Below are positions 9,721 to 17,989 of a stretch of 33,920 nt of DNA, one piece after another (the stretch's first letter is position 1; every line of letters starts with the position of its first letter). The position numbers and the translations under genes were made by a program. Source of the DNA: an uncultured Candidatus Altimarinota bacterium (GTDB lineage Bacteria > Patescibacteriota > Gracilibacteria > BD1-5 > UBA6164); assembly GCA_937864295.1 (NCBI GenBank), contig CALMJA010000105.1:1-33920 (forward strand), written 5' to 3'. Below the pieces are notes generated by a model that was not told the DNA's origin, made no database searches, and worked only from the letters and a program-made list of their open reading frames with translations.

Positions 9721-11040
9721 TTATATAGCTAAGCTTATTTGTCAAAAAATATCTTCTACTTTGCTAGTATTTTTATTGGACAAAAATGATTCTATTATTT
9801 CTAAATCATATTTTATATTATGTCATACAATAAGTATATCTAATTCTAAAATACTTTTTAAAAATGATTTTAATTTAATATCACTAACTCTATCTCATTT
9901 ATGAAATCTATTTATATAATAAATTCTTTTATCATCTAAATAAATAGAAACTCAAACAAGTTCTGCTTTTATAATATCAAGTCAAGTAGTTTCAGTATCA
10001 AGTACTATTTTTGATTCCTTTTTAATTGATTCTAAAAGCTTATCTAAGTTTTCGTCATTATTTATAATATGTACTTTTAATCCTAAATCTCTCCATAATT
10101 GAAGTTTATTAATTCAATTTTCTCAAATAAGTGAATTAAATTCATATTTTTCAAAAAACTCTATTATATCTTGATTTAATATAGAATCTGGTTTAAATAA
10201 ATAATTTTCTATTTCAAAATTATCTAATTCTACATTTAACTCAATAGTTGCTAATTTTTTACTAAGAAATGCATCCTCTCTTGATGAAACTAATTTTTCA
10301 AAAGTTTTTCATTTAAAGCAAGTTTGTAATTTTTTTATTGATACTTCATCTAAATCAGGAAGTATTTCTTCTAAAGTTTTTCAAGATACTACTTCTGAAA
10401 CTACATCATATATACGTTCTACAGTTCAAATATAATTTATCAAATCTACAGCTTTTGCAGGTCAAAATCAATCAATACCTGGTATATTATCAGCTTTATC
10501 TCATACAATAGATAGATAATCTATTATAAGTTTTGGTTCTACTAAAAATTTTTCTTTTGTTTCAATAGGTCAAAATTTTTTCTTTTTCATAGTATCATAA
10601 ATTTTTATATTATTTGATACTAAACTATATAAATCCTTATCTCAAGTTAAAATATCTACTTCAAAATCTGGATTTCAATCAAATTTTTCAGCCAGAGTTC
10701 ATATTACATCATCTGCTTCATAACCAGGAATTTCAACCATATCAATTCACATTTTTTTAATCATCTCTTCTATAAGAGAAATTTGACTTCTCAAATTATC
10801 AGGCATACGATCTCTTGTAGCCTTATATTCACTATATAATTTATGACGAAAATTTTCTCAATGAGCATCTTTTATAAAAACTATATAATCTGGATTTTCT
10901 TTTACTAAACTACTAGCAAAAAACTTAGCCATACCAAAAAGAGCATTTACAATAGTTCAATCTTTTGTAGCAAATTCTGGAAGAGCAAAAAACATACGAT
11001 AAATAAAACTATTTCAGTCTATGAGATATATTTTTTTCAT
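9721..11040 (-). CDS. PolA-like 5' nuclease with partial 3'-5' exonuclease domain (439 aa)
   Basis: The N-terminal ~290 residues are a complete 5'-3' exonuclease of the DNA polymerase I / FEN type: LIDGNSFIYRMFFALP, GYEADDVIGTLA, LTGDKDLYSLV, and the helix-hairpin-helix GDKADNIPGIDGFGPAKA. This activity removes RNA primers and flaps. A 3'-5' exonuclease-like domain then begins with Exo I (LDTETTGLD near residue 346) and Exo II (GHNIKYDLEII near 406). The protein ends with TAA about 23 residues later, before Exo III and the whole polymerase domain (family length about 900). Only 44 bases separate the stop from htpX, so the missing part is not adjacent in another frame. Either the polymerase is encoded elsewhere (split PolA) or the cell keeps only the nuclease. 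The proofreading domain should be inactive without Exo III. Confidence 0.92.
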
Positions 11041-11109: not shown

Positions 11110-11433
11110 ATGAAAAGTGGTACAAGTCAAAATTTAAAAATAGATGAATATGGAAATTCATATACATTTAACTTTAAAAAATTTAAAGAATGGAAAAAAG
11201 AATTTTTAAAAAGATTTCAAGAAAAAACTTGAAAACAATTCAATGAAACTTTTCCAAATAAAGAAGAAAAAGAAGCATTATTGAAAGCATTATTATGATT
11301 CAAATGAGAAACTGATATTTTTAGTTCAGGTAGAAAAAAAGATATAAGAGAATATGAATTTAATCCTGAAATAATAAAATTAATAGAAGAATCTAAAAAA
11401 ATTTCTATGGAATTACTTTCTATATTAAAATAG
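11110..11433 (+). CDS. Small charged protein, unknown (107 aa)
   Basis: Not recognised. It starts at ATG 11110 and is read through three TGA glycines to TAG. The protein is lysine- and glutamate-rich and predicted mostly helical (KFKEWKKEFLKRFQEKTGKQFNE, then IIKLIEESKKISMELLSILK). It has no signal peptide, cysteine or clear motif. Half of its glycines are TGA, so it is native-like, unlike the next gene. There is no evident terminator after it; the promoter of the 72-aa gene begins 11 bases beyond its stop. It is divergent from the PolA-like gene. Confidence 0.7.
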
Positions 11434-11444
11434 TAAAAAAACTT

Positions 11445-11473
11445 TTGACAAATAAAGTGCAATTTTATATAAT
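11445..11473 (+). promoter_or_regulatory. Consensus sigma-70-type promoter for the 72-aa gene
   Basis: TTGACA (11445-11450), exactly 17 bases, TATAAT (11468-11473): a perfect consensus match. It is followed by a ~50-base leader and a strong ribosome binding site (AAAGGAG at about 11515-11521) 9 bases before the ATG. Native genes here mostly lack such a site. Confidence 0.85.
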
Positions 11474-11530
11474 GAAAGTCTAAGTTATGGGATTGTCTCT
11501 TAATTTAGAAAGAAAAAGGAGAAGATTTCA

Positions 11531-11749
11531 ATGTGTGGACAAAAAGAAGTTAGCCTACCTCACCTGTGCCGTTACAAATGGCCTGAAGTGAAAAGCAAGT
11601 GCGCAAGCATTGGTGTAAACCTGAAGCAGGAAATTCCCTGCCCGAAGCAAAGGAACATTTTTTACCGGACCGTTGCACTGACAAAATCGGTGCAAGACCT
11701 GAAGCAGTTTTTCGAAACTGGGCAACATAAAGTTGCATTTGCAAGTTAA
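11531..11749 (+). CDS. Foreign-looking 72-aa cysteine-containing protein
   Basis: Not recognised. It stands out by composition: 98 of 219 bases are G or C (45%), against roughly a quarter in the neighbours. It uses CTG, CCG, CGG, CGT and GCG-type context codons that neighbours avoid. All three glycines are GGN and none is TGA, so it reads identically under the standard code. The protein (MCGQKEVSLPHLCRYKW...) has four cysteines (C2, C13, C24, C37) and H11, spaced as a possible small metal site. It is basic, with no signal peptide. It has its own consensus promoter, Shine-Dalgarno sequence and GC-rich terminator, so it is a self-contained expression unit. Probable recent transfer from a standard-code donor. 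A structured RNA is the main alternative given the GC content, but the start, ribosome site and uninterrupted frame favour protein. Confidence 0.75.
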   Translation: MCGQKEVSLPHLCRYKWPEVKSKCASIGVNLKQEIPCPKQRNIFYRTVALTKSVQDLKQFFETGQHKVAFAS

Positions 11750-11770
11750 CAACTTGCCATACGTGAAAGC

Positions 11771-11797
11771 AAAAAGACGGGAGATTCCCGTCTTTTT
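11771..11797 (+). terminator. GC-rich terminator of the 72-aa gene
   Basis: The stem AAGACGGGA / TCCCGTCTT with a 3-base loop and T run is far more GC-rich than most local terminators. It completes the cassette that starts at 11445. Confidence 0.9.
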
Positions 11798-11862
11798 AAG
11801 TTTGTTTGATTTTATATTTAAAATTTATATAATCAAAAAAATAGTAATTAATTTAAAGAAAA

Positions 11863-16094: not shown

Positions 16095-16406
16095 ATGTGA
16101 TTTAAAATGATAAATGAAAGTTTTATTTGTGAAAACTGCTTGAAAACTATAGAAAAACATCCCGAAGGTAGTGCTCGTAATCACTGTCCTTTTTGTTTAC
16201 ATAGTAAACATATGGATAAAGAATTCCCTTGAGATAGAGCTTCTACTTGTTTATGAATAATGAAACCAATTGATATCGATCATAAAAAGAATAAATGATG
16301 GATGATAAAACATAAATGTAGTAAATGTAGTAAAGAAATATTAAATAAACTTGCTCCTGATGATAACTTTTTAGATTTTATAGAAAAAAGAAATAAATTG
16401 GTTTAA
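16095..16406 (+). CDS. RNHCP-domain zinc-ribbon protein (103 aa)
   Basis: A member of the RNHCP family, named for the motif present here as ARNHCPFC. Cysteine pairs C12/C15 (FICENC) and C31/C34 (CPFC) suggest one zinc site, and HKCSKCSKE near residue 80 may be a second. GDRASTCLGIMKPI and KGWMIKHKCSKC follow the family order. The function is unknown in all organisms, though the fold suggests nucleic acid binding. Two in-frame starts exist (16095 and 16107); the first reads MGFKMINES with TGA as Gly. It is the last gene of a likely run beginning with the MFS gene. Confidence 0.88.
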
Positions 16407-16426: not shown

Positions 16427-16453
16427 TTGACTTTTTTAAATTTTAATTAAAAT
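16427..16453 (+). promoter_or_regulatory. Possible promoter for the 138-aa gene
   Basis: TTGACT at 16427-16432, then TAAAAT at 16448-16453 after a short 15-base spacer; an alternative weaker -10 lies 3 bases further. A ribosome-site-like AAGGGA precedes the ATG by 6 bases. Confidence 0.4.
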
Positions 16454-16486
16454 AGTTTAGCAATTTTGCAATAAAAAGGGACACGT

Positions 16487-16903
16487 ATGTTAGAAAGTGA
16501 TAGTTATTTGAGTCGAGATGAACAAGAACGCCTCAAGGAAATCTTGAGAGCATTTGAGCTTGAAACCAGCTATATGGACGCAATCGTGTTCGTAAAATAT
16601 GGTGAAGACTACCGGATAATCTTTGATTATTCTTTGGTTTCCAATTCAAGCGAGTATTTGGCTTACTGGTTTTACCATCTGGACTTCAGAAATGTTGCCA
16701 GTATTAAAATCGGTGAAATGAAAGGCTTTATTGATGTCTTTAAAGACAAATATGATGTGGTGATGAAAATCAACCAAAATGTATTTGTATTTGTTTCAAA
16801 AGACAAAGAAGAGAAAGAAAACAATATAACAACAACAGAAGAGTTGAGACTAAAAATGCTCAAGGATGATCTGGAAGAAGCAATTCTGAGCGCATACGCT
16901 TAA
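16487..16903 (+). CDS. Foreign-looking acidic protein, unknown (138 aa)
   Basis: Not recognised. The protein is acidic and has no signal peptide. A helix (LSRDEQERLKEILRAFELE) is followed by alternating strands and helices (DAIVFVKYGEDYRIIFDYSLV, VASIKIGEMKGFIDVFKDKYDVVMKINQNVFVFV), then a charged C-terminal helix (ELRLKMLKDDLEEAILSAYA), which suggests a compact alpha/beta domain. By count, 146 of 417 bases are G or C (35%), well above neighbours. It uses CTG, CGC, CTC, ATC and GTC codons freely. All three glycines are GGN, with no TGA, so it translates identically in a standard-code cell. It has its own ribosome site and strong terminator. It looks like a transferred single-gene cassette, comparable to the 72-aa gene. 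Confidence 0.85.
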   Translation: MLESDSYLSRDEQERLKEILRAFELETSYMDAIVFVKYGEDYRIIFDYSLVSNSSEYLAYWFYHLDFRNVASIKIGEMKGFIDVFKDKYDVVMKINQNVFVFVSKDKEEKENNITTTEELRLKMLKDDLEEAILSAYA

Positions 16904-16939
16904 AATAAAGAGTAGCCAAAGGCTACTCTTTATTTTTTT
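16904..16939 (+). terminator. Strong terminator of the 138-aa gene
   Basis: A 14-base perfect stem (AATAAAGAGTAGCC and its complement) with an AAA loop and a long T run, immediately after the stop codon. Confidence 0.92.
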
Positions 16940-16999: not shown

Positions 17000-17989
17000 A
17001 TGAATTTTGAAATAAATAAATTTCTTGAAAAATATTATAATGAAAATGAACCAATAATACTAGCTTGTTCTACGTGACCAGATAGTATGTTTTTATTGTA
17101 TGAAATACTTAAAACAAAGTATGCTAAAAATTTAGTTGCATGCTATTTTAACCATAAATTAAGAAAAGAAGCTGATGATGAAGAAGTTTTTTTAGAAAAA
17201 CTATGAGAAAAAATGTGATTTAAAGTAGAAATTGGAAATGCAAATATAAAAGAAATAAGAGATAACTTTTACCCTAGTTTATGATTAGAAGAAGTTGCAA
17301 GAGAAAAAAGATATGCTTTTTTAAATGCGATTTTAAATATATATAACAATGATAAAATAATTACATGACACCATTTAGATGATAAAATAGAAACTTTTTT
17401 CTTTAATTTAGTAAGATGAACTAAATTAACAGGACTTATAAATATGACAGAAAAATCTTCTGGGATACTTAGACCACTTATAAATATAGAAAAAAAAGAA
17501 ATTTTAAATTATTTAAATGAAAATAAACTAGAATACAAAATAGATGAATCCAACTTTGATACTGATATATCTAGAAATAAATTAAGGCATGATATAATTC
17601 CTCAATTTGAAAAAATAAATTCAAATTATAAATCAAATATATCAAATTTAATAAGTTATTTTGAAGAAATAAAAGAATTTTTAGATAAACAAGTTGCTGA
17701 TTTTTTATATGAACAGTGAATTTTAATTTTTAATAGTTGAAAATATAAAATAAATACTTTGGAAATAAACGGATATTTTTATATAAATGATTTTATTAAG
17801 TTATCTTCCCTACTTCAAAAAGAAATTATAAAACATATTTTCTATGTAAGTAATAATAAGTCTACTATATGACTTAGTGAAGCGAATATAGCTGAAGTAA
17901 TTAGGTTCATAAATGGTAAAAATAATAAAACAGTAAAAGAAATAAAAGAAATGAAATTAAAAAAAGAAAATACAATCATTATTTTTTAA
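17000..17989 (+). CDS. tilS: tRNA(Ile)-lysidine synthetase TilS (329 aa)
   Basis: TilS modifies C34 of the CAU-anticodon tRNA(Ile) to lysidine so that AUA is read as Ile. This is essential here, where ATA is a very common codon. The PP-loop reads STGPDSM (residues about 25-31), in place of the usual SGGxDS. The further signature segments are intact: ACYFNHKLR, LGLEEVAREKRYAFL, TGHHLDDKIETFFFNLVRGT, LRPLI, and DESNFDTDISRNKLRHDIIP. The C-terminal part (after about 215) is shorter and more divergent than in E. coli. Several catalytic glycines are TGA. It is convergent with the 3D-domain gene and shares its terminator. Confidence 0.95.

Follow-up and report, generated by a model that had tools for sequence, protein, structure and literature searches.

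Standard-code gene cassettes in recoded Gracilibacteria, probably written for translation in a host cell

Gracilibacteria of one genus carry a small set of single-gene cassettes in the standard genetic code, despite native genes that appear to read UGA as glycine and CGG as tryptophan. Standard-code genes kept for so long in a genome that reads two codons differently make most sense if they are read in another bacterium, probably the host. To our knowledge, chromosomal genes that evolve under a code other than that of the cell carrying them are unreported. The window analyzed here (33,920 nucleotides; G000:C105) is one contig in full, from a genome of 1.28 Mb whose genus has Candidatus Gracilibacteria assemblies as its named relatives. 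An earlier note had described in it a self-contained standard-code unit (here cassette A) that differs from native genes by its promoter, Shine-Dalgarno (SD) sequence, 72-aa open reading frame (ORF) with a GC content of 0.45, three GGN glycines and no TGA, and terminator; all of these features are real, and a second cassette (B; 16427-16939, 138 aa) lies in the same window.

Code and translation signals of native genes

Native genes were sampled from 762 kb of one genus genome (G023), yielding 632 ORFs (100 aa or longer). Glycine was written 10708 times as TGA and 3709 times as GGN (UGA, 74%), and an SD preceded one of the 632 ORFs; likewise, no native gene in the window has a strong SD. Recognized by sequence motif, the S12, L14, RpoB, and RpoC genes use TGA and lack an SD, and the highly expressed L1, EF-Ts, L10, and HU genes (assigned by sequence) are TGA-free and likewise have no SD. 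Alignment of native proteins between genomes, for which the genus codon data come nearly all from G023, placed CGG opposite tryptophan at 73 of 95 positions, all TGG, with AGA meeting arginine (867 of 1052) and TGG meeting tryptophan (215 of 254). The corresponding counts in G035, a family relative assembled as one contig (1,343,103 bp), were 16 of 24 for CGG meeting tryptophan and 79 of 121 for CGA meeting arginine. Among the 224,313 codons of the G023 native genes, CGA was counted 11 times; the native genes of the window have none.

An Rfam-based tRNA scan of the window's own genome found the arginine anticodons tct, gcg, and cct, with no tcg or acg. A CCG-anticodon tRNA is present in five of six genus genomes (the window genome's own copy is cut by a contig end), and its complete copies carry A1-U72 and G73, which PMC8629427 names as Trp-like tRNA features; the same paper assigns CGA and CGG to tryptophan in Absconditabacteria and CGG to tryptophan in some Gracilibacteria. 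The release factor RF2 model gave no match in the genus at its cut-off of 370, and the one match per genome at 238-251 bits is taken to be RF1. Judged from these sequence data, native genes of the genus read CGG as tryptophan and UGA as glycine, and RF2 is missing. The genus 16S rRNA ends in UAUCUCCUUA; the 3′ ends in G025 and G022 (L066, L067) have GGACTATCTCCTTA in place of GGATCACCTCCTTA, an altered anti-SD that fits the near absence of SD sequences before native genes.

Parts, sites, and inheritance of the two cassettes

Cassette A and the native gene beside it comprise the following features.

9721-11040, minus strand: native code-25 gene divergent from cassette A, anchoring the site in the genus
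11445-11473, plus strand: sigma-70-type promoter TTGACA-17-TATAAT; promoters like it occupy this site in G022, G023, G024, and G025
11479-11509, plus strand: 5′ leader hairpin, fold -10.5 kcal/mol
11515-11521, plus strand: SD AAAGGAG; duplex energies of -11.2 (canonical 16S 3′ end) and -10.0 kcal/mol (genus end)
11531-11749, plus strand: cassette A ORF, 72 aa, standard code; same-site homologues in G022, G023, and G025
11666-11668, plus strand: codon 46, CGG; AGA or AGG arginine in homologues, tryptophan in native genus genes
11771-11797, plus strand: intrinsic terminator, inverted repeat plus T-run

The ORF runs from ATG to TAA and stands out in composition (GC 0.45 vs 0.22 for the whole window). 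Its promoter is the sole perfect match in the window; a one-mismatch scan gave 2 matches vs 1.7 expected, so that the promoter by itself is weak evidence, and it is conserved across related genomes. The leader hairpin has a z of -1.5 alone and is stronger in the G023 and G024 leaders. Within the window, only cassettes A and B have a strong SD. The predicted protein model is helical and low-confidence (pLDDT 68), and neither Pfam nor PHROGs gave a match above cut-off (no PHROG better than E 0.015). The four cysteines and one histidine that had been suggested to form a small metal site are present, but the cysteine positions are not kept in homologues, leaving that suggestion unsupported. Protein searches of relatives, phages, and viral contigs, together with DNA and synteny, placed homologues only within the genus.

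Comparison across the genus, as the earlier note had proposed, showed that, in at least five of six genomes, the A site next to the native gene (presumably polA-like, by eye) holds a cassette of this kind. When the family was searched at the DNA level, matches to the promoter, and in some genomes also to the terminator, came from the same genus, and the loci read in related genomes have the same architecture divergent from the gene at 9721-11040. What fills the site varies: G022 has an intact A, G023 a tandem pair of cassettes, G024 an A2-type ORF, and G025 an A ORF whose frame is broken, while the G026 contig starts in the cassette A terminator. The start, SD, and frame of A are kept in G022 and G023 along with conserved residues, and residue 46 is arginine in all four aligned sequences, with CGG aligned to AGA or AGG. 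Codon 46 also contradicts the idea that the unit would be translated identically in a standard-code cell and in its carrier, since CGG is arginine in the standard code and tryptophan in native genes of the genus. The window's A ORF is saturated in Ks against the G022 copy, far beyond the native neighbors (0.42-0.63); on these rates its inheritance is not simply vertical, and the ORF could well be a replacement at an old, conserved site. As separate observations, the tandem cassettes of G023 (L034, 8701-9390) differ in ORF type, each having its own promoter, hairpin, SD, and terminator, and the beginning of the G026 contig inside cassette A (L037, 1-41) could reflect allele variation at the site in the population.

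Cassette B lies between two native genes on the same strand.

16095-16406, plus strand: native gene upstream of B, 103 aa, with TGA glycines
16427-16432, plus strand: TTGACT, a -35-like element
16460-16469, plus strand: short leader inverted repeat, weak fold
16473-16481, plus strand: SD AAAAAGGGA
16487-16903, plus strand: cassette B ORF, 138 aa, standard code; same place in five of six genus genomes
16514-16516, plus strand: CGA arginine codon; lysine in the closest homologues
16613-16615, plus strand: CGG, aligned with AGG (G026) and AGA (G022)
16904-16939, plus strand: terminator-like inverted repeat plus T-run
17000-17989, plus strand: native gene downstream of B, 329 aa, with TGA glycines

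The same pair of native genes encloses B in the window genome, G022, G023, and G024, and in G026 it follows the same upstream gene; among genome contigs, relatives of B were found in this genus only. Its Ks values (0.30 window-G026, 0.77 window-G022, and 0.57 G026-G022) match those of three nearby native genes (0.37-0.69, 0.42-0.63, and 0.48-0.75 for the pairs available), from which we conclude that B was inherited vertically alongside its neighbors and evolved in place while retaining the standard code. A Ka/Ks of 0.14-0.23 among the closer pairs (window, G026, and G022) indicates purifying selection on B, and its GC3 (0.17-0.38) is set off from that of the three nearby native genes (0.09-0.19). 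Neither divergence below that of the neighbors nor an empty site, either of which would have marked a recent transfer, was seen for B at its five filled sites. Because site and format are common to the genus and the divergence of B is like that of its flanks, the standard-code format appears old and maintained, and recent acquisition, as the earlier note had it, is not supported as a general explanation.

Further units of the cassette format occur elsewhere in the window's own genome and in the 762 kb of G023, giving a set of 19 genus units with 1600 codons. These depart from native genes: their glycines are 61 GGN and 0 TGA (0/61 vs 74%; P about 1e-36 at the native rate), an SD precedes all 19 (A and B have one in every copy read), their stops are ten TAA, eight TGA, and one TAG, and they hold 9 CGA vs 0.08 expected and 3 CGG vs 0.34 expected. 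The extra cassettes were selected by SD and an open standard-code frame, so the fairest figures come from B, which was traced by homology: its copies have 18 glycines and zero TGA (P about 2e-11). At alignment column 44 of B, CGG (window) exchanges with AGG (G026) and AGA (G022), and at columns 95 and 122 AGA exchanges with CGA; the window, G024, and G026 copies end at TAA and those of G022 and G023 at TGA, the TGA of G022 sitting exactly at the position of the window copy's TAA. Under the native code, these exchanges would be Arg-to-Trp changes plus a read-through, while under the standard code they are synonyms. By this comparison, UGA acts as a stop in the cassettes and CGG and CGA stand for arginine, the latter at few sites (A codon 46; B columns 44, 95, and 122).

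Two candidate markers were set aside. SD strength was rejected as proof of a foreign ribosome, as the genus 16S end pairs equally well (mean duplex -9.5 vs -9.6 kcal/mol), and so was missing TGA alone, as some highly expressed native genes are TGA-free too. Separately, two short SD-led ORFs in the same genome (L053/L054; G000:C45, near 15979 and 17283, minus strand; MYYNLATSCWWEEVI...) contain GGAGGAGGTGATC, which complements the canonical 16S 3′ end GATCACCTCC, not the genus 16S end; the 13-mer is in no other genome of the order.

Where the cassettes are likely to be translated

Selection on the standard-code product implies that a standard-code ribosome translates the cassettes, and the site of translation would most simply be a host or prey cell. 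We therefore favor, as the probable explanation, that these genes are carried by an epibiont and written for, and translated in, a standard-code host. Cassettes A and B are part of a limited group of single-gene transcription units on Gracilibacteria chromosomes, held in the standard code and SD format in spite of the cell's own altered code; if delivered into the host as DNA or mRNA, each would yield a small protein that alters host physiology in the epibiont's favor, comparable to the T-DNA genes of Agrobacterium or the host-takeover genes of phages. The broader proposition, namely, that recoded epibionts keep a second gene set in their hosts' standard code, delivered as DNA or mRNA and translated by host ribosomes, with the code difference separating home from exported genes, we put at about an even chance.

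The host is the natural candidate because clade members with known lifestyles live on other bacteria (PMC8080830, PMC13059738). One of these, Vampirococcus, showed no bridges to its host, and for it uptake of host DNA through type IV pili plus ComEC has been proposed (PMC8080830). As to function, the predicted model of protein B is an alpha-beta fold of fair confidence (pLDDT 81), closest to the Roadblock/LC7 protein MglB (VIA Z 12.0, 119 residues, 3.0 A), with GAF and LuxR-type ligand domains also at 10-12; Foldseek against MglB chains gave E values from 3e-4 upward, with GAF and related folds close, and no Pfam profile, including Roadblock/LC7, and no PHROG matched above cut-off. A role for the B protein as a regulator of host physiology is possible. 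Some findings weigh against translation in a host. Native genes also have TTGACA-type promoters and terminators, so cassette transcription could occur at home; neither SD strength nor absence of TGA is diagnostic, for the reasons given above; and the window's A ORF is not simply vertical, while the A frame of G025 is broken.

The best-surviving alternative, which we consider unlikely, is that standard-code bacteria or their phages maintain a reservoir of cassettes from which the same sites are filled repeatedly, the copies being standard because they are recent. It would account for the apparent swap of the window's A ORF at a conserved site and for the foreign GC and codon usage of the cassettes, and phages compatible with code 11 have been predicted to infect Gracilibacteria (PMC10746230). 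However, five genomes share the position of B, which has a Ks equal to that of its flanks and relatives among genome contigs in this genus only, no homologue of A was found in INPHARED phage records or IMG/VR viral contigs, and in-frame TGA is reported at high density in every Gracilibacteria prophage (PMC10746230).

Less likely still is translation at home, in which case UGA avoidance and SD sequences would serve high expression, and the cell would tolerate read-through of UGA or tryptophan at CGG. TGA-free highly expressed native genes and an SD that fits the cell's own 16S no worse than the canonical 16S are in keeping with this, but those TGA-free genes have no SD, S12, L14, RpoB, and RpoC use TGA, and reading CGG as tryptophan would change R46 of A, conserved in four aligned sequences, and R43 of B. 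Home translation also leaves unexplained the UGA stops at the position of a sister copy's UAA and the excess of CGA. Finally, a structured non-coding RNA with an incidental ORF is very improbable: the fold of 11478-11800 is strong on the plus strand (z -4.1), but the terminator and leader hairpin add to it, Rfam gave no match at the gathering threshold in the window and chance-level matches alone in 11420-11860, and the kept start, SD, frame, and residues of A and the low Ka/Ks of its companion B speak for coding.

Known systems and the wider family

Agrobacterium T-DNA carries bacterial genes in another cell's expression format, and these are expressed in that cell. Translation of the cassettes in a host would resemble this in that a bacterium carries genes in another cell's expression format, whereas in this case one bacterium would act on another and the two would differ even in genetic code. 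Phage morons and auxiliary metabolic genes are likewise one-gene units with their own promoter and terminator and a foreign composition; unlike them, the cassettes are on a cellular chromosome, with B inherited vertically among native flanks. The code-11-compatible phages of Gracilibacteria and Absconditabacteria (PMC10746230) are similar as standard-code genes that meet code-25 cells, but each cassette is a lone gene set between native genes at a fixed place in the chromosome, the clade's prophages are code-25 (PMC10746230), and A had no phage homologue among the records searched. The reading of native CGG as tryptophan agrees with the CGA/CGG reassignment reported with Codetta (PMC8629427), while the cassettes form an exception inside such a genome, of which we found no mention in the available text of that paper.

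If the host reading is true, one bacterium programs another via nucleic acid rather than secreted protein, and the altered code would mark home vs export genes. Host-acting genes of uncultured code-25 epibionts could then be listed from their sequence by SD, standard code, CGA/CGG as arginine, and UGA as stop; their codon usage could also hint at which host is involved. Independent of any claim about the host, code-25 annotation of the cassettes gives wrong ends and wrong residues.

In the wider family, G035 has 57 standard-code ORFs (at least 60 aa) with SD-like leaders among 147 outside native genes, vs SD-like sequences before 18 of 814 native genes; scrambled-motif controls gave 9-20 ORFs, which makes this list noisier than that of the genus. 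Its PurL, which is over the NCBIfam cut-off, has 112 GGN and zero TGA and a CGG at an arginine common to Escherichia coli and Phocaeicola PurL, while the PurL homologues of G008 and G018 are native-coded (54 and 52 TGA), so this standard-coded PurL is, on these comparisons, exceptional across the order. Other standard-code ORFs of G035 encode an acyltransferase, a PurM-like protein of divergent sequence, and several proteins whose starts resemble a lipobox. Between PurL and PurM, a PurN-like gene is native-coded, a poor fit to a clean host-only pathway, and some G035 genes may thus be plain transfers. The stretches examined of G020 (191 kb) and G053 (139 kb) have few such standard-code genes or none.

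Two further observations concern G035. The standard-coded PurL and PurM-like genes (L135, 3107-6892, and G035:C1:312065-313219) have SD-like leaders in a code-25 genome. Six standard-coded ORFs with SD-like leaders (G035:C1 37641, 357418, 655470, 703368, 707468, and 766196) have lipoprotein-like starts (lipobox by eye), as if meant for a cell with a lipoprotein pathway.
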